64,000 nucleotides of DNA from Microbacterium halotolerans (lineage in GTDB: Bacteria; Actinomycetota; Actinomycetes; Actinomycetales; Microbacteriaceae): contig NZ_KZ984051.1 of NCBI RefSeq assembly GCF_003569805.1, forward strand, positions 1 through 64,000, written 5' to 3'. The notes beneath the pieces are model-generated. The model worked only from the letters and a program-made list of their open reading frames with translations. It ran no database searches and had not been told where the DNA came from. Positions 16,546 to 51,842 of this stretch are shown one piece after another. The stretch's first letter is position 1, and every line of letters starts with the position of its first letter. A program made the translations under genes and the position numbers.

Positions 16546-19095
16546 CTACGCCGGGCCGGATCGATCAACCGGATCCAACCGTCGCTGTCGGAATGAGCGC
16601 GGGGCGAACACCGCTGCGATGCCAGTGCCGATCAGGACGATCACAAGGATGAGCCAGGGGAGCACTTCACCACCGGTCTGACCGAGTTCTGGCGTCTGTT
16701 CTTCGCCGAGATCGACCGTGTCCGGCGCGACCGGCTCTTCGGGGTCGGGCTCCGGCGCGACCGGCTCTTCGAGGTCGGGCTCCGGCTCCTCGGGGTCGGG
16801 CCCCGGCTCCTCGGCGTCCCCCCGCTCGACGTTGGCGACGAAGGGCTGTGAGGTCACGGGCGAGAAGTTGTCGCTGCCGGTAAAGACCACCACGAGGTGG
16901 TAGGTGCCCGTCGCGTCGAAGACCGGTGCGAACTGTGCGGCGCCTTCGGCGTCGAGCGTCGCACGCGCGAGCAGCTCCCCGCTGGCGTCGTCCCCCCGCA
17001 GCTCGACTGTGCCCTGGAGCGAAGCAGCTGACCCCGTCTCGGAGGCCACGGAGACAGCCACGGAAAGCACACTGCCTACGTTGGTCTTCGTCTCTGCGTC
17101 GACGTCGATCACGGTGCTCGCTCGCGATACCTCGTAGGTCGCGGTGCCCGATGCATCGAGGTGGTGATCATCACCGACGAACCCGATGGTGTCGGTGTGC
17201 TCACCAGCGTCGACGCCGGAGACCACGAAAAGAGCGAGGCCCTCGTCGATCTCGACGCTCTTGCCTGCACGCGTCGCGGTGCCGGTCTCGATCTCCGGGC
17301 ACAGCGCGCTGCCCGGATCGCTTTCGCAAGCGGCCGGGTCGATCTCGGCGTAGAACCGCGCCGAGATCTCCACCGGACCTGGGTACACCCATTCGCCGTC
17401 GGGCGGTTCGGCCAGGGCAACCACGCGCGCCGGTGCCTTCTGCACGGTCCTGTGGAGATCATCGGAAGTCGACGTGGCATACCGCGCTTCATCGCTCTCG
17501 AACGTCGCCGTCAGCGTGTAGTCACCGGCTGGCAGCGAGGTGTCGAGCGTGGCGACGCCCGCGATGTCCACCGCCGCGCTGCCGAGGTCGCGGGCGACGC
17601 CGTCCCCATCCACCACAGTGAACGTCACGGTGCCGGAGAGGGGCTCGGTTCCTACCCGCTCCTCGCCCGCGGTGTGCGAGAGCAGTCGCACCGGCTCGCC
17701 GTCGACGGGCCCGGAGTCGCGGATCGGACTGGACGCATCGAGCGACGTTGTCGTGCCGATGACGTGTTCGTAGATCCGCACGATGCCGTCGTCGCCGGCA
17801 TGGTTCGCCAACTGCGTCGAGTCGTTGAGGACTTCCCCGCCGCCGTCCGGCTCGGTCATCCAGAGCACACCAGGTTCGGGTACGGGAATCTCGCGGTAGC
17901 CCGAACCGAAGTCAGGCGCATACACCCGGGTGGTCAGCGCCTCGTCCGCCTCGGCGTCTATGGTGCCCGGGCGCCGCACGAACTGCACGTCATAGTTGTG
18001 ATTGGTGATGATGCTCGGGGGATCCACATTCGTCAGCCCGACCACGCCGTTGTTGACGATGGTGCCGGTGCCGGCGATCCGCCCGGCGCCGATCGGGTCC
18101 TCCACGGACCCCAGGATCTGCCCGGTCGGGCCGACGGTGAACTCGCCGTCGTCCCAGATCAGGTCGCCGTCGAAGATCGGGGTGCGGGTGTAGAGGGTGC
18201 CGTTGATGACGGCGATTCCGTCCCCTGAGCCCCATGTGCCGCCGATCGATGTGGCGCCACCCGCGGCGATCAGCGTGGCGTCCGGGCCGAGCGCGAGGTG
18301 GCCGCCGATCCCCCCGTTGGATCCGCCCACTGCTGCGGATTCCACCATGGTGCTGCTGGTGGCCAGGACGTAGGCGCGATCGGTGATGGTGACCGTGCCG
18401 CCGTTCCCGCTCACCTGGACGTCGCCGATGTCTCTGTGGAAGCCGCCGCCGATCGCGGCACCGTCGCCGGCTCGGGCGCGGACCGTCGCATTGCCGGAGA
18501 CCTCGATCTCGCCGGCATGGGTGTTCGCATGGCGGGTGCTGCCCCCGAGAGCTGCGTCGCGCCCCAACCCGCGGGCATACACACCGATGTCTCCGGTGAT
18601 CGTCAGCTTCGCACCCAACGGCACGGCGATACCGCTGATCGCCTCGAGCCAGCTGCACTCGGCGTCGGGATGGGCTGCGGGATCGGTGATGACGTCCATG
18701 TCGCAGCCGGGCCCGACGGTGTTGGTGATGGTCAGGTGTTTGCCGGGCTCGACGATCATGCGCAGTGAGGGCAACCAGCCGAAGCCGCGCAGATCGAGAG
18801 TGAGGTCGCACTGGACCCTGGCATCGGCGATGGAGTTGTCGTACTCGCCGCCGTCGCCGGGTACGACGATGCTCCCATCGACGCAGTCTGGCCCGAGAAG
18901 TTCGTGCGCCTCCTCCCAGATGTCGAACACCCGAACCTCCGCGGCGAGCGGTTCGGCCATAGCCTCTTTCGATGTGGAAGCCGGGCTCAGGGCGCTCGCG
19001 TCGGCGGCTTGCGGAACGGCCACACCTGTGATGACGGCCGATGCCGCAACCATGACGGTGAGCACTCGGGCGATTCGTCGCACTGAAATCCGCAC
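16546..19095 (-). CDS. Large secreted surface protein with Ig-like domains and C-terminal anchor
   Basis: An 849-residue protein. The N-terminus has a classical signal peptide (MRISVRRIARVLTVMVAASA, cleavage near ADASA). Residues about 60-330 form a glycine-rich beta-helix-like stretch (GAKLTITGDIGVYARGLGRD, GAAIGGGFHRDIGDVQVSGN). Three or so Ig-like modules follow (ETKTNVGSVLSVAVSVASET and similar), then a repetitive acidic Pro-Glu stalk (EEPGPDPEEPEPDLEEP). The end has ELGQTGGEV, a membrane helix (LPWLILVIVLIGTGIAAVFA) and basic residues: the shape of a sortase-anchored protein, but the motif is a degenerate LGQTG. Ligand unknown. Probably acquired by insertion at the DUF2207 locus. Confidence 0.8.
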   Translation of the reverse strand: MRISVRRIARVLTVMVAASAVITGVAVPQAADASALSPASTSKEAMAEPLAAEVRVFDIWEEAHELLGPDCVDGSIVVPGDGGEYDNSIADARVQCDLTLDLRGFGWLPSLRMIVEPGKHLTITNTVGPGCDMDVITDPAAHPDAECSWLEAISGIAVPLGAKLTITGDIGVYARGLGRDAALGGSTRHANTHAGEIEVSGNATVRARAGDGAAIGGGFHRDIGDVQVSGNGGTVTITDRAYVLATSSTMVESAAVGGSNGGIGGHLALGPDATLIAAGGATSIGGTWGSGDGIAVINGTLYTRTPIFDGDLIWDDGEFTVGPTGQILGSVEDPIGAGRIAGTGTIVNNGVVGLTNVDPPSIITNHNYDVQFVRRPGTIDAEADEALTTRVYAPDFGSGYREIPVPEPGVLWMTEPDGGGEVLNDSTQLANHAGDDGIVRIYEHVIGTTTSLDASSPIRDSGPVDGEPVRLLSHTAGEERVGTEPLSGTVTFTVVDGDGVARDLGSAAVDIAGVATLDTSLPAGDYTLTATFESDEARYATSTSDDLHRTVQKAPARVVALAEPPDGEWVYPGPVEISARFYAEIDPAACESDPGSALCPEIETGTATRAGKSVEIDEGLALFVVSGVDAGEHTDTIGFVGDDHHLDASGTATYEVSRASTVIDVDAETKTNVGSVLSVAVSVASETGSAASLQGTVELRGDDASGELLARATLDAEGAAQFAPVFDATGTYHLVVVFTGSDNFSPVTSQPFVANVERGDAEEPGPDPEEPEPDLEEPVAPEPDPEEPVAPDTVDLGEEQTPELGQTGGEVLPWLILVIVLIGTGIAAVFAPRSFRQRRLDPVDRSGPA

Positions 19096-19384
19096 GGCCG
19101 TCTTCTCTCATCTGGGTCGTCGAGCTGGAATCCCTGTATTCCCCTTCTGGAGCGTATACGCTGCTCAACGGCTGGGCAACGGGATCAACGAGCCGATCAT
19201 CGGCCTGCGCACACCGAAGCGTCTGGCGAGTGCCCGTCGCGGATCTCCGCCACGGGAGCAGACGCCGAGCTACTGAAACCGCTCATCGCCGAGCCAGCGA
19301 ACTTTGTGATTGTGAGCGCTACTGGATCGTTGAAGAAGCGCAAGAAGCTCTCTCAGCGAGCGGCGCGAGTGGTTCGAGCACTGA

Positions 19385-21295
19385 TCAGACGCCGCCGCCT
19401 CCGCCGCCTCCTCCTCCGCCGCCTCCGGAGCCGCCTCCCGTCGAGCCGCCGGACGAGCTGGAGGTCGACACCGTCGACGACAGCGAGCCGACGCCTGCCG
19501 AGAACGACGCAGCGTGGAACGCTCCGGCGCCTGCCCACCACGACGGTGAGCTGTCGGTGTACATGAGCGCGAGATGATCGGACCACTGCTTCTCGAGGCC
19601 GAACACGACGGCGAACGGAAGCAGCTCCTCGTACAGGTGCAGCAGCTGGCGCGGGTCGTTCGGATCGATGCGGCGTCGCTGCGCCCCCGACGGTGACTGC
19701 AGCGTGCGGATCCGGTCCTCCTCCGCCAACTCGATGAACAGCTTGAGGCCCTTGAGGTGATCTCGCACCTCGGCGCCCGCCTCGTTGAACGGATGCTTGG
19801 CGACCACCAGGAGCGCGGCGAAGGAGACGACGAGTCCGACGACGAGCGCCGTCACAGGGAGCGCAGGCGACACGTAGCCCGACAGCGCGAGCACTCCGCC
19901 GACGACCGCGACGACGGCTGAGGCGATCGCGGCGCAGACGACCGCGAAGATCGGCCCGCGCGGAAGCGGCCTGCGGTACAGACGCCGGCTCTCCTTCGCG
20001 GTCTCGTTGTGCAGCTTCGTCACGGCCTTCGACAGGCGTGAGTCCTGTTTGCCGAAGGAGTAGACCCCACCGACGGGGAGGTTCGGCCCGAACAGCGCGC
20101 GCAGCAGCCTGGTGCCGTTCTCGTCGGCGCGGCTCGGATCGACCAGCTCCGCGGCCAGCTTCGGCTTATGGCGCTTGACCGCGGGATGCTCGATGATCCG
20201 CACCGATCCGCGGATCGCCTGTTCGAGGAGCTCGGCGGAGATCGCCTTGTCGAGACCCGTGCTGAAGAACCGTCTGGCGGAGAAAGCATCGATGCCTGGC
20301 GGAGGATCGTACTCCGCGATGATCGTGGGGCGCCCCGGCGAGTCCTTCAGCACCGTGCGGCGCGCGACGACGGCCCAGCCGAGCGTCACCACCGAGCCGA
20401 GGGCGCCGACCAGCGCGGCCCAGCCCCACATCGATGCGAACGGCGAGCTGTCGAAGGGGGTGAAAGTGCCCGAAGCGAACCCGATCGCCACGGTCGCGCT
20501 CTCGTACGGAGCCGCGGCGACGGCGTCCGTCTCGAAGGTCACCGCCCCATCCGGCTCCTCCGTGCTCGAGATGCCGCACTCGTCGCCATCCGGGCCGATG
20601 TAGCAGCGCGCGTCACCGGTGAGCTCGGCCGCGAGATCCGCGTCGATCGTCACGGTCGCGCTCACCCCGTGGAACGGCTGCAGCCATTCCTCTCCGTTGA
20701 TGTCCCAGTAGAACTCGTCGAGACCGTTCTCCATCGACTGCCCGACGTTGTCGATCGTGTAGGTGAAGACGTAGGTCTGCGCACCCTCGGCGAACTCGCC
20801 CTCCGGAACGGCGGAGGTGACCGAGAGATAGCCGTCCTCCGAGTCGCTCTCATAGTCGCGCGCCGCGCCGCGCCCGTCGGTGACGGAGACGATCGTCGGG
20901 TGCGTGGGAGCGCCGAAGGAGCTCTGCGGTATGGCGCGGACCATGCCGCGATTCTGCGCGGCGGGGAACTGCGCGACGAAGGTCTCGGTCACCGTGGCGA
21001 CGCCGACGCCCTCGTCGTCGCGCGACAGCTCGAACTCGGCGTGCAGGCTCTCGAACTCGAAGTCGTCGACGGAAGCCGGCCGGATGCCGGTGGGCAGCGC
21101 GGAGCCGGCGCCGGATGTGCCCGCCGCGGACGCGGGCGGGCTCGTTGCCGACGCGGGCGGGCTCGTTGCCGACGCGGGCTGGCTCGCTGCCGTTGCACCC
21201 GCCATTGGCAGCAGCACGCCGAGCAGAGCGCCGACCGTCACGGCGAGAACTGCTGCAGCCCGTCGGGCGAATGCCCGGGGGTCTCCTGTCTTCAC
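19385..21295 (-). CDS. DUF2207 membrane protein
   Basis: A 636-residue protein with a signal peptide (AVLAVTVGALLGVLLPMAG), an external domain of about 270 residues (ELSRDDEGVGVATVTETFVA, TYVFTYTIDNVGQSMENGLD, EEFYWDINGEEW-like core), a membrane helix near residue 285, then a cytosolic part with two more helices (AVVCAAIASAVVAVVGGVLAL and LPVTALVVGLVVSFAALLVV) and a poly-glycine C-terminus. This is the standard DUF2207 layout of actinobacterial membrane proteins of unknown role. A short Ala-Ser-Pro repeat follows the signal peptide. The last 110 residues also occur as a broken copy at 16194-16541. Confidence 0.88.
   Translation of the reverse strand: MKTGDPRAFARRAAAVLAVTVGALLGVLLPMAGATAASQPASATSPPASATSPPASAAGTSGAGSALPTGIRPASVDDFEFESLHAEFELSRDDEGVGVATVTETFVAQFPAAQNRGMVRAIPQSSFGAPTHPTIVSVTDGRGAARDYESDSEDGYLSVTSAVPEGEFAEGAQTYVFTYTIDNVGQSMENGLDEFYWDINGEEWLQPFHGVSATVTIDADLAAELTGDARCYIGPDGDECGISSTEEPDGAVTFETDAVAAAPYESATVAIGFASGTFTPFDSSPFASMWGWAALVGALGSVVTLGWAVVARRTVLKDSPGRPTIIAEYDPPPGIDAFSARRFFSTGLDKAISAELLEQAIRGSVRIIEHPAVKRHKPKLAAELVDPSRADENGTRLLRALFGPNLPVGGVYSFGKQDSRLSKAVTKLHNETAKESRRLYRRPLPRGPIFAVVCAAIASAVVAVVGGVLALSGYVSPALPVTALVVGLVVSFAALLVVAKHPFNEAGAEVRDHLKGLKLFIELAEEDRIRTLQSPSGAQRRRIDPNDPRQLLHLYEELLPFAVVFGLEKQWSDHLALMYTDSSPSWWAGAGAFHAASFSAGVGSLSSTVSTSSSSGGSTGGGSGGGGGGGGGGGGV
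21129..21191 (-). repeat. Three 21-bp direct repeats inside the DUF2207 gene
   Basis: Three tandem units of 21 bp (GACGCGGGCGGGCTCGTTGCC on the plus strand, the third with two changes) encode repeated ASATSPP heptapeptides just after the signal peptide. In-frame unit gain or loss would change linker length only. Confidence 0.85.
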
Positions 21296-30766: not shown

Positions 30767-32254
30767 TCACACGGTCTGGGCGATGGGCACCTCCTCGTGG
30801 GCGACCGCGTCGCGCTCCGGCAGCTGGATCGGATGGGCGCCGGCCATCTTCTCGACCACGCGCACCACCTGGTTCGAGTAGCCGAACTCGTTGTCGTACC
30901 AGACGTAGAGCACCACGTGCTCGTCGCCGTCGGAGAGCGTGGCGAGCCCGTCGACGATGCCGGCGCGGTTGTTGCCCACGAAGTCGGTGGAGACGACCTC
31001 AGGCGACTCGATGTAGTCGATCTGCTGCCGCAGCTTCGACGTGAGGCTCGCCCTGCGCAGGAACGCGTTGATCTCGGCCTTCGACGTCGCCTTCTCGAGC
31101 GTGAGGTTCAGGATCGCGAGCGAGACATCCGGTGTGGGCACCCGGATCGCCGACCCCGTCAGGCGCCCTGCGAGCTGCGGCAGGGCCTTGGCGACCGCCT
31201 TCGCCGCACCGGTCTCGGTGATCACCATGTTCAGCGTCGCTGCCCTGCCCCGTCTGTCGCCCGAGTGGAAGTTGTCGATCAGGTTCTGGTCGTTCGTGAA
31301 GGAGTGCACCGTCTCGACATGACCGCGCTCGACGCCGTACTCCTCGTCGAGTGCCGCCAGCACTGGCGTGATCGCGTTCGTGGTGCACGATGCCGCCGAC
31401 AGGATCCGGTCGCCCTGTTCGATTCCGTCGCTGTTGATGCCGTGCACGATGTTCCTGACGCTGCCGCGCCCCGGCGCTGTCAGCAGCACGCGCGCGACGC
31501 CCCGCGCACGCAGGTGCCGCCCGAGCCCCTCCTCGTCGCGCCACTTGCCCGTGTTGTCGACCACGATCGCGTCGTCGATGCCGTACTCGGTGTAGTCGAT
31601 CGAAGCCGGGTCGTCGGAGTAGATGACCCGGATGAGCGTGCCGTTGGCCAGGATGGTCTGGTTCTGCTCGTCCACCTCGATCGAGCCGTCGAACGAGCCG
31701 TGCACCGAGTCTCGGCGCAGCAGGCTCGCGCGCTTGCGCAGATCCATGTCGCCGCCCGAGCGCACGACGATCGCCCGCAGCCGCAGGCCGGAGCCGCGCC
31801 CCGCGTGGGCGATCAGGATGCGGGCGACGAGGCGTCCGATCCTGCCGAAGCCGTAGAGCACGACGTCGGTGGGGCGCGGCGGCTCGGCCCCGACGACCTC
31901 AGCCAGCTCCGCACGCAGGAAATCTGCGAGCGCCCGCGGCTCGTACGATCCGCCACCGGCGTCGAAGCGCTGGACGAGCCTGGCGACATCGATCGACGCC
32001 GCACCGAGGCCGAGTGCGTCGAGCGACTCGAGAACGGCGAGGGTCTTCGCCGGATCGAGCACGTCGTCGCCGGCGAGCCTGGCGAATCGGTGCGCCTTGA
32101 GGATGTCGATCGGCGAGCACCCGATCAGACGGCGCCCGTGGATGGACACGACGGTGCCGTTCGCCCGATACAGCCTGCCGATGACCGGAATCATCCGCTC
32201 CGCGAGTTCCTCGCGCGCGGCCCAGGCGTGCTGTTCGTCCTCGTACGCGTTCAT
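30767..32254 (-). CDS. GapB-type glyceraldehyde-3-phosphate dehydrogenase with N-terminal extension
   Basis: A 495-residue protein, about 150 residues longer than classical GAPDH. The first 130 residues form an extra helical domain (EELAERMIPVIGRLYRANGT, IDILKAHRFARLAGDDVLDP). The NAD-binding part starts at VLYGFGRIGRLVARIL (about residue 133). The catalytic Cys is at about 290 in SAASCTTNAITPVLAAL, and the usual later motifs GAAKAVAKALPQLAGRLTGS, IRVPTPDVSL and WYDNEFGYSNQVV are intact. This long form matches Corynebacterium GapB, linked there to gluconeogenesis; that role is carried over by analogy. Start ATG 32254. Confidence 0.92.
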   Translation of the reverse strand: MNAYEDEQHAWAAREELAERMIPVIGRLYRANGTVVSIHGRRLIGCSPIDILKAHRFARLAGDDVLDPAKTLAVLESLDALGLGAASIDVARLVQRFDAGGGSYEPRALADFLRAELAEVVGAEPPRPTDVVLYGFGRIGRLVARILIAHAGRGSGLRLRAIVVRSGGDMDLRKRASLLRRDSVHGSFDGSIEVDEQNQTILANGTLIRVIYSDDPASIDYTEYGIDDAIVVDNTGKWRDEEGLGRHLRARGVARVLLTAPGRGSVRNIVHGINSDGIEQGDRILSAASCTTNAITPVLAALDEEYGVERGHVETVHSFTNDQNLIDNFHSGDRRGRAATLNMVITETGAAKAVAKALPQLAGRLTGSAIRVPTPDVSLAILNLTLEKATSKAEINAFLRRASLTSKLRQQIDYIESPEVVSTDFVGNNRAGIVDGLATLSDGDEHVVLYVWYDNEFGYSNQVVRVVEKMAGAHPIQLPERDAVAHEEVPIAQTV

Positions 32255-34178: not shown

Positions 34179-35039
34179 TCACGCGGTGTCTGCGGGCTGT
34201 TCCTCGCCGTTGCCCTGACTCGACGCCGCGGCGGGACGACGCGCAGGCCGTCGCCCGCCGATCAGCAGTCCGACGGTGAGACCGATGACGAGCAGCGCGG
34301 CACCGGCCACGCCGATCGGCAGCCACGGAACATCGCCCTGCGCGGCGGCGGACTGCTCCTGTGCCTGACCCGCATCAGCCTGCGAGCTGTCGTCCGCGAC
34401 CGCGGTGGATGCCTCGGCGCCGCAGTCGCCGAGGTCGAGGTCGAGCGTGAGCGGGTCGAGTTCCGCCCCCGCCTCGTAGAAGCCGGCGAAGGCGTCGGCG
34501 CCGGAGTTCGTCAGCGTGATCGGCGCTGCGTCGATGGCCAGTTCGCCACCGGTCGGCGCGAGGTCCTCGTCGACGGCGATGTCACCGATCCATTCCTGCT
34601 CGGTGTCGACGGCGACCTCGCCCTCCATGTCGTTGCTCCGCGCGTCGAGCAGCAGCGCGGCCGCGCCCTGCCCGTCGAACTCGATGGTCGGGTTCGCCAG
34701 TGTGAGGTCGAGCACCCCGTCGTGGCCGGTGAAGTGCAGCGTGCCGGTGAACGACACGGCGCCTGCGCCCGTCTCGGGGTCGACGCTCCCGGTTGCGCCG
34801 CTCCAGAGGAAGTCAGGGGTGTCGTACTCGGCGCCGTCGGATGTCTCCCACGACCCGTTCGCAATCGACCCGCTGATGTAGGCGCGGAAGCTCTCCTTGA
34901 CGCCCCAGGAGAGGGCGCCGCCGCGGATCTCGCAGCTGGTCGCCGCGTCGGCTGCCACAGCGGCGGAAGGGGCGAGCACGGCGGCCATCGATGCGACGGC
35001 CGCGACCGCGCCCGCACGCAGGAGGAAACGAGGGATCAC
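34179..35039 (-). CDS. Membrane-anchored HtaA-domain protein (haem binding)
   Basis: A 286-residue secreted protein: signal peptide (LLRAGAVAAVASMAAVLAPS, cleavage near AVAADA), one HtaA domain of about 180 residues starting at GGALSWGVKESFRAYISG and containing GTLHFTGHDGVLDLTLANPT with the conserved histidine, then a Gln/Ala-rich spacer and a membrane helix (WLPIGVAGAALLVIGLTVGL) with a basic, then acidic, tail. HtaA domains bind haem in Corynebacterium, with the conserved Tyr and His as ligands; here Tyr of FRAYISG and the His are kept. Third gene of the surface haem locus. Start ATG 35039. Confidence 0.88.
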   Translation of the reverse strand: MIPRFLLRAGAVAAVASMAAVLAPSAAVAADAATSCEIRGGALSWGVKESFRAYISGSIANGSWETSDGAEYDTPDFLWSGATGSVDPETGAGAVSFTGTLHFTGHDGVLDLTLANPTIEFDGQGAAALLLDARSNDMEGEVAVDTEQEWIGDIAVDEDLAPTGGELAIDAAPITLTNSGADAFAGFYEAGAELDPLTLDLDLGDCGAEASTAVADDSSQADAGQAQEQSAAAQGDVPWLPIGVAGAALLVIGLTVGLLIGGRRPARRPAAASSQGNGEEQPADTA

Positions 35040-35078
35040 AGGGTTCTTCTCTCTGTCTGATGTTCTGCGGGCATGTCG

Positions 35079-37466
35079 CTACACGGCCGCGGGCGCGCGG
35101 TGCTGGCGAGCGGCGAGCGTCGCCGTGCATGCGGCGATCGCGACGAGGCTCCAGGCGATCGTCCACCACTCCCACGGCGCCATGCCGCCTGCGGGCACGG
35201 GCTGGGCAGGGCCAGCCGCGACCGCTTCCCCTCCCCCGCTCGGTGCGGTGGGTGCGGATACGGATGTCTCCCGCTCGAGGATCGCGATCTCGGCGCCGGC
35301 CTCGGCGCTGCCCTGCAGCGTGATGACGTGGTCGCCCGTGGCGTCGTCGGGCAGCGTGCCGGCCCAGTGCACGAGGCCGTCGGCATCCGCGGCGGCGTCC
35401 TCGTCGAGCACGATGGGCCCGGTGTCCTCGACGCTGCCGTACAGCACGACGAGCACACCGGTGTCGTCGGCGTCGAATCCGGATGCCTGCAGCTGAATTC
35501 GGCCGCCGGCCCGGATCTGGTCGGCGGGAGTGAGGACCTCCAGCCCCACCGTGGTCGGTGCGCTCTCCGCGGCGGTGTAAGTGGTGTCCTCGCCCCCGGA
35601 TGACGTGGCGCCGAACGAGTCGGAGTTCGCGGTGCCGACCGTGAACGTCAGCGCGTCGAAGCCGATGCTGTTCGAGCTGCCGCCCCCTGGGCCGCCTGTG
35701 AGCGATCCGCTGACGCCGACGCCCGACCAGGTGACCTCGTCGCTCTCACCCTCGGTCTTCGACGCGGACGACAGGTCGAGCTGGTATGAGGACGCGCCGA
35801 AGTTCGCGGTGTTCCCCGTGTGCAGCGTGGCCGACGTCGGACCGTGCACCGTGATCGACGGGTTCGACACGGAGAACATCGTCATCCCGTAGCCCTGGAA
35901 GCTCACGACTCCCGAATAGCGCACGGTTCCCGTCTGGCTCTCGCTGTCCCAGTCGCTGCCTTCGGCCTGCGGGAAGAGGTAGCCGCTGCCGACGCCGCTG
36001 GTCGAGACGGAGCCCTTGGCGCAGTGGCTGTAGCCGAACTGCTCCTTGCCCTCACACGTCGTGTAGGCGACGAAGGCGCTGGACACGCCCCACCGCAGCG
36101 AGCCGGCCGCCGCGGAGCCCTGCGCCTCGGTCGGCGCGGGCTCCGGATCGGCGGAGGGCTGGTGTGCGTCGTCGCCGCGGCCCCCCTGGGCCTTCGGGGG
36201 CTCGGTGACGCCGACCTCGCTGGCCTGCCCGATCGTGAACGTGACCCGATCGAGTGTCTCTCCCTGACTGTAGAACTCGTGCCCCTGGTAGGAGAAGAAC
36301 TGCGCGCCGGCGCGCGTCAGCGCTGCGGGTGCGCTGCTGAACCGCACCGCGTCGCCGGTGAGCGACTGTCGATCGGCCGATGCCAGGTCGATGGTGGCGA
36401 AGACGATGGTGCTGCCGTCGTAGTCGATCCGCAGCTGGGCGCTCTTCGCGTTCGCGACCCGGATCGACGGGTTCGCGATCGTGTGGTCCAGAGCACCGTT
36501 GTGTCCGTAGAAGGTCGCCTGGCCGGCGTACTGCACCGTGCCGGTCTGCCCGTTCCATGTGGTGCCGGATGATGCCTGGGGGAAGGTGAACACGCCGTTG
36601 CCCGATGCCTGCTTCGCCCCCTCCGCCACAGTGATCCTGCCGCCCGCGATGTCGCCGGTGACGTAGCTGCGGAAGTTGCTCTTCACTCCCCACTGCAGGC
36701 TGCCCTCCGTCGATCGCTCGCTGATCGTGACCGGCACCGCGTTGGAGACCGATTCCGCGTAGCCGTCATCGTCCGGAACGAACCGAGCAGTGATGCGGTG
36801 ATCGCCGACCGGCAGATCCTTCGTCGTCAGCACGGCGCTGCCATCGGTCGTCTGCACCGCGCTGCCGAGCTGATCGCCTCCGTTCCAGAAGGTGACGGTG
36901 CCGGTGATGTCGGGATCGGTCGCGGCCGTGAACTCGATCTCCTCGCCGACGTATGCCGAGGACGATTCGGCGGACAGTGTGACCGCGGCCGTCTCCGGCG
37001 CACCGCCGGGGAAGAGCGCACTCCAGTCGACGGTGATGTCGGTGCGTGCGTAGAGGTTCTCAGCGGTCGGGAACGAGCGCGACGGCCACGAGATCACCTC
37101 ATAGTCTCGTGAGGCATCCAGGCTGTCAGCGGGAATCGGCAGCACATCGCTGACCCCGCCGTCGACGTCGATGCTCGCCGAGATCGCCGCCTGCGTATCC
37201 TCCACCGCCGCCAGATCCGAGCCCTTCTCGATCACGGTGAAGTATGCGTGCGGGCCGTCCTGGCCCGGCAGCACCTGCACGTCGCCGTAGCCGGTGCCCT
37301 CGATCGCGATGTCGACCCGGTCGTCGGCGACCTCCGTCACGTCCGCCGTGAAACTCGGCTGCGCTGCCGCATTCGCCGCGACGGGCGCCAGCAGCGCGCC
37401 GCCCAGGGCCAGTGCGGTGGCGGCCAGCAGGCTGGCGGCCCTGCGCATGGGTGTCGATCGAGCCAC
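35079..37466 (-). CDS. Secreted protein with two HtaA domains and a novel N-terminal domain
   Basis: A 795-residue protein. It has a signal peptide (SLLAATALALGGALLAPVAA), then a domain of about 115 residues (from QPSFTADVTEVADDRVDIAI to ARTDITVDWSALFPG) shared with the next protein, an Ig-like module (VTFWNGGDQLGSAVQTTDGS), a first HtaA domain (STEGSLQWGVKSNFRSYVTG, with TFYGHNGALDHTIANPS), a second HtaA domain (SLRWGVSSAFVAYTTC) in which the usual region carries an unusual Cys pair, and a C-terminal membrane helix (WWTIAWSLVAIAACTATLAA). Role: probably surface haem capture. GTG 37466 is used; ATG 37448 six codons on is possible. Confidence 0.86.
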   Translation of the reverse strand: MARSTPMRRAASLLAATALALGGALLAPVAANAAAQPSFTADVTEVADDRVDIAIEGTGYGDVQVLPGQDGPHAYFTVIEKGSDLAAVEDTQAAISASIDVDGGVSDVLPIPADSLDASRDYEVISWPSRSFPTAENLYARTDITVDWSALFPGGAPETAAVTLSAESSSAYVGEEIEFTAATDPDITGTVTFWNGGDQLGSAVQTTDGSAVLTTKDLPVGDHRITARFVPDDDGYAESVSNAVPVTISERSTEGSLQWGVKSNFRSYVTGDIAGGRITVAEGAKQASGNGVFTFPQASSGTTWNGQTGTVQYAGQATFYGHNGALDHTIANPSIRVANAKSAQLRIDYDGSTIVFATIDLASADRQSLTGDAVRFSSAPAALTRAGAQFFSYQGHEFYSQGETLDRVTFTIGQASEVGVTEPPKAQGGRGDDAHQPSADPEPAPTEAQGSAAAGSLRWGVSSAFVAYTTCEGKEQFGYSHCAKGSVSTSGVGSGYLFPQAEGSDWDSESQTGTVRYSGVVSFQGYGMTMFSVSNPSITVHGPTSATLHTGNTANFGASSYQLDLSSASKTEGESDEVTWSGVGVSGSLTGGPGGGSSNSIGFDALTFTVGTANSDSFGATSSGGEDTTYTAAESAPTTVGLEVLTPADQIRAGGRIQLQASGFDADDTGVLVVLYGSVEDTGPIVLDEDAAADADGLVHWAGTLPDDATGDHVITLQGSAEAGAEIAILERETSVSAPTAPSGGGEAVAAGPAQPVPAGGMAPWEWWTIAWSLVAIAACTATLAARQHRAPAAV

Positions 37467-37554
37467 AGTGCATCACTCTCTGGGTTGTTCTCAGTCGTTC
37501 GTCGTGGATCCGCAGGTCGCCTGCGGGCCTTCGCGCATTCGTCGCCGCCTGACG

Positions 37555-37598
37555 CGGCCCCTCCTCCGTCGACCCTGCGGCCGACGGAGGAGGGGCCG
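37555..37598. terminator. Long GC hairpin between two surface haem genes
   Basis: Two 17-base complementary arms (CGGCCCCTCCTCCGTCG and its complement) flank a 10-base loop. It lies directly after the 612-residue surface protein gene and before the HtaA gene, so it may terminate or attenuate transcription between them, making a strongly expressed first gene and weaker later ones. Confidence 0.75.
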
Positions 37599-37626
37599 GC
37601 TCACGCCGTCGCAGCGGATGCTGCGG

Positions 37627-39465
37627 TCAGCGAGCGCTGCCGACTGCGGCGCGGCGGCCGGCCACCAGAACGGCGGCGCCCAGCAGCGTCAGCACTCCGG
37701 CGATCCCGACGAGAGCGAACGGGGCGTCCGCGCCGGTCACCGCGAGGGCGCCATCACCTTCGTCGTCGTTCGTCGTCCCGCCGTCGACGGAACCGGAGCC
37801 GTTGCTCTCATCCGAACCGGCATCAGTGGCGCCGTCATTCGAGTCGGCATCGGTCGCGCCATCGTCCGAATCGGCATCGGCTGCGCCGTCATCCGGGGTC
37901 GTGTCTTCCGCCGCGAGCACCTCGAACTCGGCACTGTGCGAAACCGCGCCGTCGGCAGACGCGAAGGTGACGGTGTGATCGCCCGTCTCGAAGTCGCCTG
38001 GAACGGTCCACGTCGTCGAAGCGACGCCGTCCGCGTCCGCGATCACGGCCGGCAGCGTGACGGGGTCGGACTCGACGGTCACGGCGAACTCCGCTCCGAC
38101 CTCGACCGGGCTGACGGCGAATCCGATGTCGTCGCCCTGCGTCACCGACGTGACGGACTCGCCGTCGGCGTCGGTGATCGCGAACGTGACGGCATCCGGC
38201 TCCTCCTCACCGGGCTCCTCCTCGGCGGGGAAGAGAGCGGCCCAGTCGATCGTGATGTCGGCGCGGGCGTACAGGTTCTCTTCGCTCGGGTTCGATCGCG
38301 ACGGCCACGAGATCACCTCGTACGAGGTGCCCGACACCAGTTCTTCGGCAGGAACCGACAGCACATCGCTGAGCGTTCCGTCTGCCTCGATCGAAGCCGA
38401 GATCGCGGTGTCCGTCTGGCTCACGTCCGACAGGTCGGCGCCCTGCTCGACCAGGGTGAAGTACGCGTGCGGTTCGGTCTGACCCGGCAGCGCCTGCACG
38501 TCGTCGTAGCCCGAGCCCTCGATGGCGACGTCGATGCCCTCGTCCGCCTTCTCCGTCACGTCTGCCGTGAACGTCGGCTGAGCCGGCTCCGGCAGCGCCT
38601 CGGCGAATGCGAGCGCTGCCTTCGCGTCCTGTCCTCGGTCCGTCGCGGCTGTGTGGTTCGCGGCGGTGAAGACGGATGTGGCGCCCTCATCCAGCTGCTG
38701 CACGTCGAACTCGAGCTCGAACGCGCCGTCCTCGTCGAACGTCGTGCGGCCGTCCGTGGTGTCGTCGGAGGGGTAGACGACGGCGGCGCCCTCGCGGCAT
38801 CCGAGTGCGAGTGTCCAGAGGTCGGCCGGAAGGTCGACGTCGCCGCACAGGAATACGTAGATGCCCTGCGCCGGGTTATATCCCGTGCCCGTCAGTGTGA
38901 CGGTGTCGCCCTCGGGGTTCAGGTCGGTCGCCGGGTCGACGGACAGGCTGGGCTCGAAGACCGGCGCCTCCTCCGGGAAGAGCGCGGCCCAGTCGATCGT
39001 GATGTCCGTGCGGGCGTACAGGTTCTCCTCCGTCGGGAACGATCGCGACGGCCACGAGATCACCTCATACGACGTGCCATCGACCAGCTCGTCCGCGGGA
39101 ACCGACAGCACATCGCTGACGGTGCCGTCCGGCTCGACCTCCGCCGAGATCGCGGTGTCGGCCTGGCCGACCTCCGACAGGTCAGCGCCCTGCTCGACCA
39201 GGGTGAAGTACGCGTGCGGCTCGGTCTGTCCGGGCAGAGCTTGAACGTCGCCGTAGCCGTCGCCTTCGATCGCGACATCGATCCGATCGTTCGCGACCTC
39301 CGTCACGTCAGCCGTGAAACTCGGCTGCTCCGCCGCCTGCGCGGCCAGCGGAGCGAGAAGTGCTCCCCCGAACGCCAGCGCGGTGGCGGTCAGCACGCTG
39401 ACGGCCCGCTTCCTGTGCAGTGCGCCGCGCACGCGCGACGGTGTGATTGATGCTGCTTCTGCCAT
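37627..39465 (-). CDS. LAxTG-anchored surface protein with two copies of a novel domain
   Basis: A 612-residue protein. Signal peptide (VSVLTATALAFGGALLAPLA); first copy of the shared domain at about 47-165 (QPSFTADVTEVANDRIDVAI ... SYEVISWPSRSFPTEENLYA ... WAALFP); a beta module with GDTVTLTGTGYNPAQGIYVF and two cysteines (neocarzinostatin-like); second copy at about 297-410; an Ig-like module; an Asp/Gly/Ser-rich wall-spanning stalk; and the sorting signal LAVTGAD with a membrane helix and basic tail, of the LAxTG kind used by class E sortases. Start ATG 39465 with GGAGGAAAAGGA upstream. First gene of the locus, with an iron-regulator-like box and a folded leader ahead. Confidence 0.86.
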   Translation of the reverse strand: MAEAASITPSRVRGALHRKRAVSVLTATALAFGGALLAPLAAQAAEQPSFTADVTEVANDRIDVAIEGDGYGDVQALPGQTEPHAYFTLVEQGADLSEVGQADTAISAEVEPDGTVSDVLSVPADELVDGTSYEVISWPSRSFPTEENLYARTDITIDWAALFPEEAPVFEPSLSVDPATDLNPEGDTVTLTGTGYNPAQGIYVFLCGDVDLPADLWTLALGCREGAAVVYPSDDTTDGRTTFDEDGAFELEFDVQQLDEGATSVFTAANHTAATDRGQDAKAALAFAEALPEPAQPTFTADVTEKADEGIDVAIEGSGYDDVQALPGQTEPHAYFTLVEQGADLSDVSQTDTAISASIEADGTLSDVLSVPAEELVSGTSYEVISWPSRSNPSEENLYARADITIDWAALFPAEEEPGEEEPDAVTFAITDADGESVTSVTQGDDIGFAVSPVEVGAEFAVTVESDPVTLPAVIADADGVASTTWTVPGDFETGDHTVTFASADGAVSHSAEFEVLAAEDTTPDDGAADADSDDGATDADSNDGATDAGSDESNGSGSVDGGTTNDDEGDGALAVTGADAPFALVGIAGVLTLLGAAVLVAGRRAAVGSAR

Positions 39466-47703: not shown

Positions 47704-49536
47704 TCACTCGGCTGCCGGAGCCTCGGCGAAGACGGACCCGCAGCTGTCGTCGATCGTCACCGGGGTGTCCGTGACGGTCGGCGAGAAGCGCAGCGACACT
47801 GGGCCGAGGTCGCCGGTCGGGATCGTCGACGTGTACGACATGGTCTTCGTCTCGCCCGTGGGAACGAAGAAGCGGTTGCTCCACACGTTGCGCTCCCGTT
47901 CGATGCCCGTGCGGGTCTCCCACGATACGTCGGGGTCGGGTGAGACGCTCAGGATCTCCGACCCCGGAGGCGCGAAGTACATCACGTCGAGGACGAACCA
48001 GTCGAGCGGAATCGAGTAGCGCTTGTTCCGGATCCCCAGCTGGTAGCTCGTCATGCCGTCCACCGGCACATCGTTGGCCACCGTGATCGAAGTCGTCATC
48101 GTGCCGGCAGCGACATCGCAGGTCAGGCTGAGGCTCGACTCGAGGAAGTACGTCAGCTTGCTCGCCGCGTAGTCGTTCAGGAAGAGCCCGACTTCGGTCG
48201 ACTCCTGGTTGGACGTGGGCAGCGCGCCGTCGATCTCCAGGTCCTCGACCATGGCCTGTTCGTCCTCACGGGGGAACCAGGCGTGCAGTCGTTCTTCCTC
48301 CGCCGCGCGAACGAGCTGGTCGATCATCTGCACCGGGTCCCAGTCGCCGTCTGCGACCTTGTCGAAGACGCGCGCCGCAACGTCACCGAAGAACAGATCC
48401 TGCTGTTCACCGGTGTATCGCTGGTAGGCATCGTAGAGCAGTGCCTGCACGGCGTTCTCGCTCGTCAGCACCGTGCCGTCCGTGCTGGTCACGGGCCCTG
48501 TCGCCTTGAGCATGTACGAAAGCACGACGGGGTCGATCGTGATCACGCCGTCGAGGTGCTCGTCGGTGGTGATGTTCCAGAGCGAGTCGAACGCCTCAGC
48601 CGTCGTCGGGAAGTTCGGCGTGCGCGTGAAGTTGCCGAAGCCGGTGAAGGTGTCGGAGACGTACAGCTGCTCCATCTCGTCCGGCGGATCGATCACCTTG
48701 AGGTCTCGTCGGAATGTGTAGGTGTTGGTCTGGTCGGCGAGCTCCGCCTTGCCGTTGTCGACATCGACGATGGCGGTCGCGGCAGGCAGGCCGCCGCCCG
48801 AGCGGATCTCGGCGTTGTTCTGGAACACGAGCATGTAGCGACGAGGCTCCTCAGCGCCGGCGAGGTCGAGCATGTTCGGCAGATACTGCTCGGCGAGGTC
48901 GAGCGCCGGTGCCGCGATCTCGAACACGTCGGTCAGCGAACTGACCGCGTCGTCCACGACCGGAAGCAGCTTGCTGCGATCGATGCTGCTGACCGTCTCG
49001 TTGGCCGAGTCGAACGCATCGCTGATCTCGGGAAGCGACGACTGCGCGTCGCGCAGCGGCGAGAGGTCGAGGCCGCCGTCGCTGATCGACGCGTCCTTCA
49101 GGTCCAGGCTGTTCAGGATGGCGATACCCGGAGGCAGCGCCCCCTCGACGATCGTGTGGGTCGCCTGTGTCGCGAGCCTGACGGCGTTGACGTTCTCGCC
49201 GATGAGGGGCACGGCTGACGCGACCGACCAGAGCGGTCCGCTCACCTTGCCGTTGGCGTCCTCCACCATGCCCTGGATCTTCTCGGCATGCTCGACGACC
49301 TGCTGGGTGTCTCCGCTCGTGGCGTCATCGAGAACCAGCGAGATCTCGTCCTTCGCGGCGAGCAGGTTCGAAGCGACCGAGACCGCCTGATAGACGAAGA
49401 CTCCGACCACGATGATCCCCAACAGGAGCACACCGCTGAATCCGAACCCGACGATCCTCGGCCAGAGCCGCTTCCGGGGCGGCGCAGCGTGCTGCGCAGG
49501 GCGGCGCGAGCGGCGCACTCCGGTTCTAGACGACAC
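47704..49536 (-). CDS. DUF4012 membrane-anchored protein
   Basis: A 610-residue protein with an arginine-rich N-terminus, one membrane helix (IVGFGFSGVLLLGIIVVGVF) and a large outside part. The DUF4012 pattern is visible in VPLIGENVNAVRLATQATHT, RYMLVFQNNAEIRSGGGLP and HLDGVITIDPVVLSYMLKAT, and the C-terminal half is beta-rich. Proteins of this type are linked with cell-wall or exopolysaccharide genes in actinobacteria, but the biochemical role is unknown. GTG 49536 is used. Follows the HYR surface protein gene by 107 bp on the same strand. Confidence 0.88.
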   Translation of the reverse strand: MSSRTGVRRSRRPAQHAAPPRKRLWPRIVGFGFSGVLLLGIIVVGVFVYQAVSVASNLLAAKDEISLVLDDATSGDTQQVVEHAEKIQGMVEDANGKVSGPLWSVASAVPLIGENVNAVRLATQATHTIVEGALPPGIAILNSLDLKDASISDGGLDLSPLRDAQSSLPEISDAFDSANETVSSIDRSKLLPVVDDAVSSLTDVFEIAAPALDLAEQYLPNMLDLAGAEEPRRYMLVFQNNAEIRSGGGLPAATAIVDVDNGKAELADQTNTYTFRRDLKVIDPPDEMEQLYVSDTFTGFGNFTRTPNFPTTAEAFDSLWNITTDEHLDGVITIDPVVLSYMLKATGPVTSTDGTVLTSENAVQALLYDAYQRYTGEQQDLFFGDVAARVFDKVADGDWDPVQMIDQLVRAAEEERLHAWFPREDEQAMVEDLEIDGALPTSNQESTEVGLFLNDYAASKLTYFLESSLSLTCDVAAGTMTTSITVANDVPVDGMTSYQLGIRNKRYSIPLDWFVLDVMYFAPPGSEILSVSPDPDVSWETRTGIERERNVWSNRFFVPTGETKTMSYTSTIPTGDLGPVSLRFSPTVTDTPVTIDDSCGSVFAEAPAAE

Positions 49537-49643: not shown

Positions 49644-51842
49644 TCAGCGCACCCCGTGACGGCGTCGCAACGTCAGCACCAGTCCTCCGAGGACGAGCGC
49701 CAACGCCCCGATGAGACCGGCGACCGGGACCGTGGAACCAGTCGCCGGGAGCTCGGAGACCGTGGCGCCGCTGCCCGATTGCTCCGCGTCCACTGAGTCA
49801 CCGAGTGCGTCGTCATCATCCGGCTGGGCAGCTGCTTCGTCGACGGTGACCTCGAACGCCCCTGATGCGACGTTCCCCGCTTCGTCTGTGGCTGTGCAGG
49901 TGACCGTCGTCGTACCGACCGAGAATGTGTCGCCAGATACGAGTGCGTCAGCACCGGCGGTGCACATCGGGGGCACCGCCCCGTCGACGAGGTCTTCGGC
50001 CGTCGCGACGAAGTACACCTCCGCACCGCTGGATCCGGACGCCTCGGCCGTGATGTCATCCGGAAGACTCAGCACCGGAGCGGTGGTGTCTTCGACCGTC
50101 ACGTCGAACGCTCCTGCCACGGCGTTGCCTGTCTCATCCATCGCTGTGCAGGTCACCGTCGTCACCCCGAGAGGGAATGTGTCGCCCGACGTGAGTGCGG
50201 CAGTATCAGCGGCGCACACCGGAGACACCGCACCGTCGACCAGGTCTTGTGCGGTCGCGACGAACGACACCTCCGCACCATCCGACCCGGATGCCTCTGC
50301 CGTGATGTCATCCGGAATGTGAAGCACCGGAGCAGTGGTGTCCTCGACCGTCACATCGAACGACCCGGTCGCTGCGTTGCCCGCCTCATCCGTCGCCGTG
50401 CAGGTCACCGTGGTTGCGCCAAGCGGGAAGAAGTTCCCCGAAGCCGAGTCACATTCAGGAGCACTGTCACCGTCGACCAAGTCGGTGGCCGATGCTGTGA
50501 AGGCGACGGCCGCACCGTTCTCGTCGGCTGCCTCGGCCGTGATGTCATCCGGAAGATCCAGCACCGGTGCGGTGGAGTCCTCGACGGTGACGTCGAAGGT
50601 GCCCGTGGCGACACTGCCTCCGTTGTCGCTGGCTGAGCAGGAAACGGTCGTCGTGCCGAGTGCGAAGGTCGTGCTGGCGGCGGGAATGCAGTCGACTGCG
50701 ACAGCGCCGTCGACGGCGTCAGCCGCGGTCGCCGTATAGTCGACGATCGCACCGCTCGCTCCGGTTGCCTCCGCCGTGATGTCTGCCGGAAGGTCGAGAA
50801 CGGGTGCAGTGACGTCGGTGACCGTGACGACGAACGTTCCTGCCTCGCTGGCGTTGCCCGCATCGTCGGTGGCAGTGCAGCTCACCGCCGTTTCTCCGAG
50901 AGTGAAGATGCTCCCTGATTCGGGCAGGCACACGGGCGAGACCGGGCCGCTGACAAGGTCCGTAGCGGAGACGCTGTAGTCCACGACGGCCCCGCTGCTC
51001 GCTGTGGCCTCGACGCTGAGATCATCAGCGACGACGAGCTCCGGCGGTGTGGTGTCTTCGACGGTGACGGTGAAGTCGCCTGAGCTGGAGTTGCCTGCGT
51101 CATCGGTGGCGGTGCAGCTCACCACCGTGCTGCCCAGGGGGAACACCGTGCCTGCGGCGGGCGAGCAGTCGGGCGCGATCGCGCCGTCGACGTCGTCGGA
51201 GGCAGACGCGCTGTAGCTGACCTCAGAACCATCCGGACCGGTTGCCTCGGTGACCACGTCCTCCGGGAGCATCAGGTCAGGGGCAGTCGTGTCAGGTGTC
51301 GGCTCTTGTGGGACGATCTCAACGTCGACGGGAAGCGTCTCTGCGTTCACATCGACGGTGAACGCACCGAGATCGGCTGCCGAGCTCCCGGCGACCACGA
51401 GATAGAAGTCTCGGTACTCGAATCCCTCAAGGATCGTGATCGGGTTCTCATATGCCCATTCGACCGCCTCCCCGTTGGCCGAACTGCTGTTCGCACCCCA
51501 GCAGTTCACGATCGGCATGTCCGGCTGGAACGGCGGGTCGTAGAGAGTCGTCGTCAGCGCGAAGTCACCGTTCGGCGTCACGGCGAAATCCATCAGAGAG
51601 CCCGTCGGCCCCGTTCCGATGATCGTCACCTTGACGACAGCGTAGTGAGTCTCCTCACTCCCGGCGGCGCAGCCCCCTGTGACGGGCCGCACGTACGTCG
51701 GGCTTGACGCGTCGATCGTTCCGGTGATCGATTGCGAGTCGGCCCTGGCTGTCTCAGGCGCCATGAACAGCGAGGCCATCAGCGCCAGGACGGCGATCAG
51801 TGAGAGGAGGGTCGGACGGGTCTTCGCCAGTGAAGGGTTCAC
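49644..51842 (-). CDS. LPxTG surface protein with six HYR repeats
   Basis: A 732-residue protein. A signal peptide (LLSLIAVLALMASLFMAPET) leads to a beta-rich head of about 160 residues, then six hyalin-type (HYR) repeats of about 80 residues, each running from the motif D-TAP-L-LP-DI-AEA to a C-A-D--GN pattern ending in F-VTVE, and finally the sorting signal LPATGS, a membrane helix (VAGLIGALALVLGGLVLTL) and RRRHG. This looks like an adhesive or spacer protein on the cell wall. The two cysteines per repeat could form disulfides. Start GTG 51842; no strong ribosome site is seen. Confidence 0.88.
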   Translation of the reverse strand: MNPSLAKTRPTLLSLIAVLALMASLFMAPETARADSQSITGTIDASSPTYVRPVTGGCAAGSEETHYAVVKVTIIGTGPTGSLMDFAVTPNGDFALTTTLYDPPFQPDMPIVNCWGANSSSANGEAVEWAYENPITILEGFEYRDFYLVVAGSSAADLGAFTVDVNAETLPVDVEIVPQEPTPDTTAPDLMLPEDVVTEATGPDGSEVSYSASASDDVDGAIAPDCSPAAGTVFPLGSTVVSCTATDDAGNSSSGDFTVTVEDTTPPELVVADDLSVEATASSGAVVDYSVSATDLVSGPVSPVCLPESGSIFTLGETAVSCTATDDAGNASEAGTFVVTVTDVTAPVLDLPADITAEATGASGAIVDYTATAADAVDGAVAVDCIPAASTTFALGTTTVSCSASDNGGSVATGTFDVTVEDSTAPVLDLPDDITAEAADENGAAVAFTASATDLVDGDSAPECDSASGNFFPLGATTVTCTATDEAGNAATGSFDVTVEDTTAPVLHIPDDITAEASGSDGAEVSFVATAQDLVDGAVSPVCAADTAALTSGDTFPLGVTTVTCTAMDETGNAVAGAFDVTVEDTTAPVLSLPDDITAEASGSSGAEVYFVATAEDLVDGAVPPMCTAGADALVSGDTFSVGTTTVTCTATDEAGNVASGAFEVTVDEAAAQPDDDDALGDSVDAEQSGSGATVSELPATGSTVPVAGLIGALALVLGGLVLTLRRRHGVR

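Follow-up and report, generated by a model that had tools for sequence, protein, structure and literature searches.

The 64,000-nucleotide stretch of Microbacterium halotolerans DNA analysed here (contig NZ_KZ984051.1, positions 1 to 64,000; the window) carries three surface protein genes in a row, P0001, P0002 and P0003, in which a repeated domain, termed R, is found together with HtaA domains. R is a real, recurrent module absent from Pfam and NCBIfam, and it accompanies HtaA well above chance. There is about an even chance that P0001, P0002 and P0003 together supply the surface part of an iron-regulated HtaA-HmuTUV-haem oxygenase system with R as its outer docking or capture module, the ligand of which we infer. 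Sequence data carry the architecture, the link to HtaA, the presence of hmuTUV and haem oxygenase genes in the genome, and the iron boxes in relatives. Coordinates are window positions; all three genes are on the (-) strand in the order P0001, P0002, P0003.

37627..39465, (-) strand: P0001, 612 amino acids (aa); hydrophobic N-terminal signal, R copy 1, neocarzinostatin-like domain, R copy 2 and a further C-terminal part, ending in a low-complexity linker and then an LAVTG sorting signal
38974..39324, (-) strand: core of R copy 1, P0001 residues 48–164 (profile match with margins, 38962–39333)
38599..38955, (-) strand: putative neocarzinostatin-like (immunoglobulin-like, Ig-like) domain, P0001 residues 171–289, from NF040680, AlphaFold2 and VIA
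38227..38577, (-) strand: core of R copy 2, P0001 residues 297–413 (profile match with margins, 38215–38586)
35079..37466, (-) strand: P0002, 795 aa; hydrophobic N-terminal signal, R copy 3, Big_3_5 Ig domain, HtaA1 and HtaA2, then a possible further Ig-like domain and a hydrophobic segment
37008..37358, (-) strand: core of R copy 3, P0002 residues 37–153 (profile match with margins, 36996–37367)
36234..36704, (-) strand: HtaA1 of P0002; tyrosine (Tyr) at the axial position, helper histidine (His) and C-terminal Tyr, with the propionate serine (Ser) replaced by asparagine
35718..36104, (-) strand: HtaA2 of P0002; Tyr at the axial position, helper His replaced by Tyr, Ser replaced by alanine, C-terminal Tyr not aligned
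34179..35039, (-) strand: P0003, 286 aa; hydrophobic N-terminal signal, single HtaA, C-terminal hydrophobic segment
39691..39709, no strand assigned: degenerate DtxR/IdeR-like box, 6 mismatches in 19 positions, about 225 bp upstream of P0001

An earlier note, made from the DNA letters, had described a domain of no recognised family occurring twice in an LAxTG-anchored protein and once ahead of the HtaA domains of the next. The coordinates, the identity of 66–84% between copies and the LAVTG motif agree with this. The R cores consist of 117 residues (pairwise identity 84, 71 and 66%) and give local alignment scores of 419–508, against a shuffle maximum of 64 (300 shuffles per pair); the three profile matches show E-values of 7e-76 to 5e-73. 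The hallmark motif is exact in copy 1 only, copy 2 displaying SYEVISWPSRSNPSEENLYA and copy 3 DYEVISWPSRSFPTAENLYA, and the final strand given as common to all, ITIDWAALFP, is present in two copies, the other having ITVDWSALFP. A fourth copy at a credible score is not found in the organism's own genome, where the next match has E = 0.2 and an internal stop.

Profile searches of Pfam and NCBIfam placed R nowhere, in accord with the unknown family of the earlier note. These were made with an alignment of 94 members (A5), i.e. 91 redundancy-thinned sequences from the 178 full-length copies of a set of 64 loci described below, plus the three window copies. At E = 0.1 every Pfam family matched at most one of the 94 and every NCBIfam family at most three, and a PDB sequence search with R yielded no family. 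Near-invariant columns are Gly48, Gly69, Leu82, Tyr88, Glu89, Trp93 and Trp114. The loop that follows Trp93 is partly conserved (His96 in 80/94, Pro99 in 73/94, Arg107 in 65/94).

R is a wide family in the Microbacteriaceae and in other families of the order. It is present in 29 of 398 genomes of a family sample, scanned with a strict model made from three R sequences, and in 32 of 297 genomes of an order sample, scanned with a broad model. HtaA is found in 25 of the 29 R-bearing family genomes versus 163/398 overall (Fisher p = 3.6e-7). Twenty-two further order genomes carry R; HtaA is present in 20 of them, in 8 weakly (E-values 1e-6 to 1e-9), and a comparison of coordinates and frame lengths places R and HtaA in the same open frame in 17 of the 22.

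The 64-locus set, found by scanning for R alone with a broad-clade model (A4), spans Microbacterium, Leucobacter, Leifsonia, Microterricola, Homoserinibacter and one unplaced Microbacteriaceae bacterium. Window-type copies, with the sequence WPSRSFP, are under-sampled because the scan used the broad clade. A second set of 29 loci has genomes in common with the first (e.g. G182/L076 and G376/L123), thus the two are not independent. Genes in relatives come from an open reading frame caller of our own that may split or miss genes. With this caller, R and HtaA share one open reading frame in 57 of the 64 loci and lie in different frames in three, a contig end falling inside the R gene in the other four. 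The 29-locus set shows the same frame in 17, another frame in four, R without HtaA in five and R not called in three. Proteins contain one to six R copies, interspersed with other Ig-like domains. A separate observation concerns L038, where the protein encoded at positions 17575–19479 has an LATTG motif and contains R of the window type (WPTRSFP), and HtaA is not in that locus; this R is either outside a haem context or a detached partner.

In 57/57 of the shared frames of the 64-locus set, in 13/17 of those of the 29-locus set and in P0002, all R copies precede all HtaA domains and the chain ends in a hydrophobic C-terminus. Because R is N-terminal of HtaA in chains with a hydrophobic C-terminus, R would point outward and HtaA would lie near the membrane. 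Outward R and membrane-near HtaA fit a scheme in which docking or capture takes place on the outside and haem is handed over further in. R is also found in proteins without HtaA. These are anchored by LAxTG in the window and in the nearest relative found (G164), and a Pfam SLH match is present in six of seven Leucobacter R-only proteins tested, that of L135 being without SLH. R-only proteins held by the wall or by SLH suggest a function of R itself. In P0001, LAVTG is followed by hydrophobic residues and then a basic tail; its match to NF058582 (18.6 bits) is below the cut-off of 27, and the genome encodes one sortase gene. LxxTG was not seen in the sequences of P0002 or P0003, both of which end in hydrophobic segments. 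Four Leucobacter loci among 15 (L125, L129, L130, L132) repeat the layout of R-only, R-HtaA and HtaA proteins.

The three HtaA domains, two in P0002 and one in P0003, match PF04213 with 167.6, 119.8 and 38.1 bits, all above the Pfam cut-off of 24 bits, in accord with the earlier note. A lack of haem ligands in them, which would have told against the reading of the earlier note, is not what is seen. The axial Tyr, whose role in haem ligation is described in the accessible part of PMC12494546, is present in all three and in 137 of the 140 HtaA domains of the whole set, the other three being gapped at this position. The helper residue across the 140 is His in 131 and Tyr in seven. P0003 has all four pocket residues (Ser50, Tyr54, His106 and Tyr188). 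HtaA2 displays an inserted loop with two cysteines (Cys) after the axial Tyr as well as a Tyr-Tyr pair, and both features recur in the third HtaA of Leucobacter L123 and L133 and in the second HtaA of G164. Elsewhere in the own genome (C1:1356903-1357370, equal to L066:9904-10371) a 155-residue protein gives a partial HtaA match of 24.4 bits over profile positions 4–85; it shows no obvious signal peptide, has a P450 cytochrome gene close by and is seemingly cytoplasmic.

That no haem ATP-binding cassette transporter lies beside the surface genes is true locally, but the genome does encode one. The hmuTUV genes (PF01497, PF01032 and PF00005 in a row) are at C1:343205-346295, and a DUF2470 gene together with a haem oxygenase gene (PF01126) is at C1:339192-340220, both about 300 kb from the surface genes on the same contig. 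Haem would then be moved by the organism's own HmuTUV. In G164 the corresponding genes are contiguous, in the row R, R-HtaA-HtaA, HtaA, hmuT and hmuU, with DUF2470 and haem oxygenase genes divergent from R. Of the hmuTUV synteny which the earlier note had proposed to look for, the hmuT and hmuU part is thus present in a relative. In the 64-locus set, an HmuT-like gene is found in 53 loci and an HmuU-like gene in 37 (blastp clusters, with Pfam run on one representative each). Comparison of the R copies with those of G164 gives a nonsynonymous divergence (dN) of 0.07–0.14 and a synonymous divergence (dS) of 0.38–0.65, and dN is less than dS for every domain compared.

Iron boxes were scanned for with a 19-bp consensus taken for that of DtxR/IdeR; all box counts given here depend on it. 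The stretch considered comprises the first 60 bp of whichever R or HtaA gene opens the locus together with the 400 bp ahead of it, and could be tested in 61 of 66 loci, the upstream sequence of five being too short. In 56 of the 61 the best DtxR-like match of the whole locus falls in this stretch, and 50 of the 61 stretches show four mismatches or fewer versus 6 of 2810 background windows. The own hmuT is preceded by a DtxR-like site with three mismatches. A 19-base DtxR motif is mentioned in the accessible part of PMC13001254. The haem-binding Tyr of HtaA, the genomic hmuTUV and oxygenase genes, the contiguity in G164 and the boxes of most relatives all favour the haem-uptake locus that the earlier note had suggested.

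The fold of R is known by prediction only. An AlphaFold2 model of copy 1 from the window, built on an alignment that held 93 further sequences, shows an Ig-like sandwich with a predicted local distance difference test score (pLDDT) of 92.5 and a predicted template modelling score of 0.85; structure prediction had been proposed in the earlier note. Strands are modelled at positions 4–13, 16–24, 39–46, 61–65, 71–78, 88–94 and 106–110, and a short helix at 51–56. The top Foldseek row for R is 8aca, a Deinococcus Cu superoxide dismutase subunit (E = 1.4e-3, Z = 9.1), a match from which no function is read. The structure matches listed for R include no NEAT domain, and this excludes nothing.

The domain between the R copies of P0001 also gives a confident model (pLDDT 92.0), with the strand order of R and a helix likewise after the third strand. 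Its nine best VIA rows have Z-scores of 9.1–11.4, the next row being at 7.7; eight of the nine are titled neocarzinostatin, macromomycin or C-1027, and the ninth is 4jw3, which we take to be neocarzinostatin. As modelled, this middle domain clearly has the neocarzinostatin fold. Its profile matches are below curated cut-offs (18.6 bits versus 25 for PF00960; 40.7 bits versus 86 for NF040680, E = 1.9e-10). Among 27 of its relatives, at E = 0.1, PF00960 is matched by 14 (best 2.9e-7) and NF040680 by 15 (best 1.4e-11).

R itself is likely a divergent neocarzinostatin relative, though this is not proven; the basis is formed by profile-profile scores, intermediates (e.g. L080 residues 43–160) and the common strand order. 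Profile-profile comparison by hhalign of R with neocarzinostatin-like domains gives P-values of 6.6e-5, 1e-5 and 1.2e-4, over local stretches of 28–37 columns only, and controls against HtaA give 0.14–0.48. Against neocarzinostatin-type structures R shows VIA Z-scores of 7.1–8.3 over 88–100 residues, tied with unrelated folds, and Foldseek E-values of 5e-3 to 2e-2. With the 94 R members at E = 0.1, PF00960 is not among the matched families and NF040680 is matched by a single member at 0.09. Iterated profiles begun from the middle domain reach window R copy 2 at 0.0064 and then at 4e-7. The profiles behind these values already contained R-side copies (6, 16 and 130 matches overlapping strong R matches in successive rounds). 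When 105 middle-type domains and 213 R copies were held apart, no R copy among the 213 scored below E = 0.01 with the middle-type profile (the best reached 0.084, those of the window 2.1 or more), nor did any of the 105 middle-type domains with the R profile (best 0.58). Such scores are about those of reversed sequences (best 0.98 and 1.4), and pairwise alignment of R with the middle domain is no better than with shuffles.

The preferred reading can be put as a sequence of steps, of which capture, ligand and order of transfer are the parts that we infer. P0001 would be anchored in the wall, where R together with the neocarzinostatin-like domain would be outermost, and in P0002 R would be membrane-distal to haem-binding HtaA domains. 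R may dock or capture a haem source, or partner proteins, for the HtaA domains that P0002 and P0003 carry and that probably bind haem through Tyr; haem would then pass from HtaA to HmuT and HmuUV and finally to haem oxygenase.

Several observations weigh against this reading. Some HtaA lies N-terminal of R in 4 of the 17 R-HtaA open reading frames of the 29-locus set, and in the same set five loci are without HtaA, two of them at contig ends; in a third, L057, a separate scan places HtaA in the frame of an R match. R is present and HtaA absent genome-wide in 4 of 29 family genomes and in 2 of 22 order genomes. The box test fails in 5 of 61 loci, and the window box is weak with its six mismatches, yet is the best match in the 64 kb. 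Columns of R that are rich in Tyr, His, Cys or Met in at least half of the members are only Tyr41 (83/94), Tyr88 (93/94), His96 (80/94) and Tyr105 (53/94). Moreover His96, in the FG loop, is replaced by Arg in all three window copies, a change found in 12 of 233 R copies overall (16 could not be scored). Ig-like modules in general are frequently just structural.

The last point leads to a doubtful but quite conceivable alternative, in which R is a ligand-free structural unit and belongs to a set of Ig-like repeats whose part is to lengthen HtaA proteins so that they span the envelope. The predicted Ig-like fold and the one to six copies mixed with other Ig-like domains are consistent with this, and the near-invariant columns resemble what would be expected of fold residues. 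However, R is outside HtaA relative to the membrane anchor (57/57 and 13/17), which is the wrong site for a stalk. A stalk role is unlikely because R is membrane-distal to HtaA, and a stalk beneath HtaA was set aside on domain order. R-only wall or SLH proteins that lack an HtaA of their own recur in haem loci, and the partial conservation of the loop after Trp93 likewise speaks against this alternative.

Two further explanations appear improbable. R might itself bind a porphyrin, haem or another, in a cleft resembling the one that holds the chromophore of neocarzinostatin-fold proteins; the possible fold kinship with neocarzinostatin, macromomycin and C-1027, the haem-locus context, and the frequency of His96 and Tyr41 point that way. 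Yet the His96 to Arg change affects every window copy, the fold match of R ties with unrelated folds, clean profiles leave R and the neocarzinostatin-like domains unlinked, and a common fold proves no function, so we give direct binding little credence. Equally hard to credit is a drift of the locus towards some other surface function, such as adhesion or carbohydrate binding, with the HtaA domains as relics. The distance of the surface genes from hmuTUV, the pocket residues lost in HtaA2 and the weak box above the operon would suit such a drift, but axial Tyr, helper His and C-terminal Tyr are retained in HtaA1 and P0003, dN is less than dS throughout, and the genome encodes hmuTUV and haem oxygenase. 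The reading of R as the outer docking or capture module is kept.

An extension of that reading, which we regard as speculative and on balance unlikely, is that in this order R and its neocarzinostatin-fold neighbours make up a lineage of receptors that recognise haemoproteins or porphyrins at the surface, supplying the binding of haem sources that CR (HtaA) domains seem to lack. Of the CR domains that Ford et al. 2025 tested, none bound haemoglobin according to the accessible part of PMC12494546, contrary to earlier reports. The same part allows for haemoglobin binding by other protein segments.

The results describe an HtaA system with iron-box-like promoters that is spread across Microbacterium, Leucobacter and relatives. 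Its outer module is uncatalogued, and its partners are anchored by sortase or SLH. To our knowledge, HtaA-type haem scavenging is known mainly from Corynebacterium. If R binds haem sources, a missing receptor step has been named; if not, R nonetheless gives Pfam a clear new family of domains. The R-HtaA system may also bear on the culturing of haem-requiring Leucobacter strains, because the accessible part of PMC6868719 reports a Leucobacter strain dependent on exogenous haem.

Three other features of the window are recorded here. Positions 49644–51842, (-) strand, encode a 732-residue protein with six HYR matches that adjoins a DUF4012 protein (47704–49536). The glyceraldehyde-3-phosphate dehydrogenase at 30767–32254 has about 129 residues preceding the match to its NAD-binding domain. 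An 849-residue protein with Big_3_5 Ig domains (16546–19095) adjoins a DUF2207 membrane protein (19385–21295).

A limited literature search did not find neocarzinostatin and HtaA together, and nothing was seen in it on the R module. CwpG, a putative sortase substrate of Actinoplanes missouriensis, resembles P0001 as an actinobacterial cell-wall protein with an annotated neocarzinostatin-like domain; it differs in that HtaA or a haem context is not mentioned in the accessible part of PMC13251363. With the neocarzinostatin family (PF00960, NF040680) the middle domain of P0001 shares its predicted fold and sub-threshold profile matches, and the R model its strand order. Unlike that family, R has no profile match and only a tied fold match, and both R and the middle domain sit in anchored surface proteins. 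The ChtA CR domain, whose Tyr-Tyr haem pocket is unique among characterised CR domains according to the part of PMC12494546 that is accessible, is similar to HtaA2 of P0002, which also has Tyr at the axial and helper positions. In that account, the helper Tyr of ChtA is preceded by Lys and its loop contains a disulfide, whereas HtaA2 has Gly before the helper Tyr and its Cys pair in another loop; unlike ChtA, HtaA2 is without the propionate Ser and the C-terminal Tyr.

The closest known counterpart is the corynebacterial HtaA/ChtA-HmuTUV-HmuO system, which has HtaA (CR) domains with an axial Tyr, anchoring to surface and membrane, hmuTUV and a haem oxygenase, as here. The corynebacterial system is under DtxR iron control. 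It differs from the present one in that here an HtaA-free wall protein opens the gene run, the surface genes are about 300 kb from hmuTUV, and the outer parts are made of R and of neocarzinostatin-like modules.

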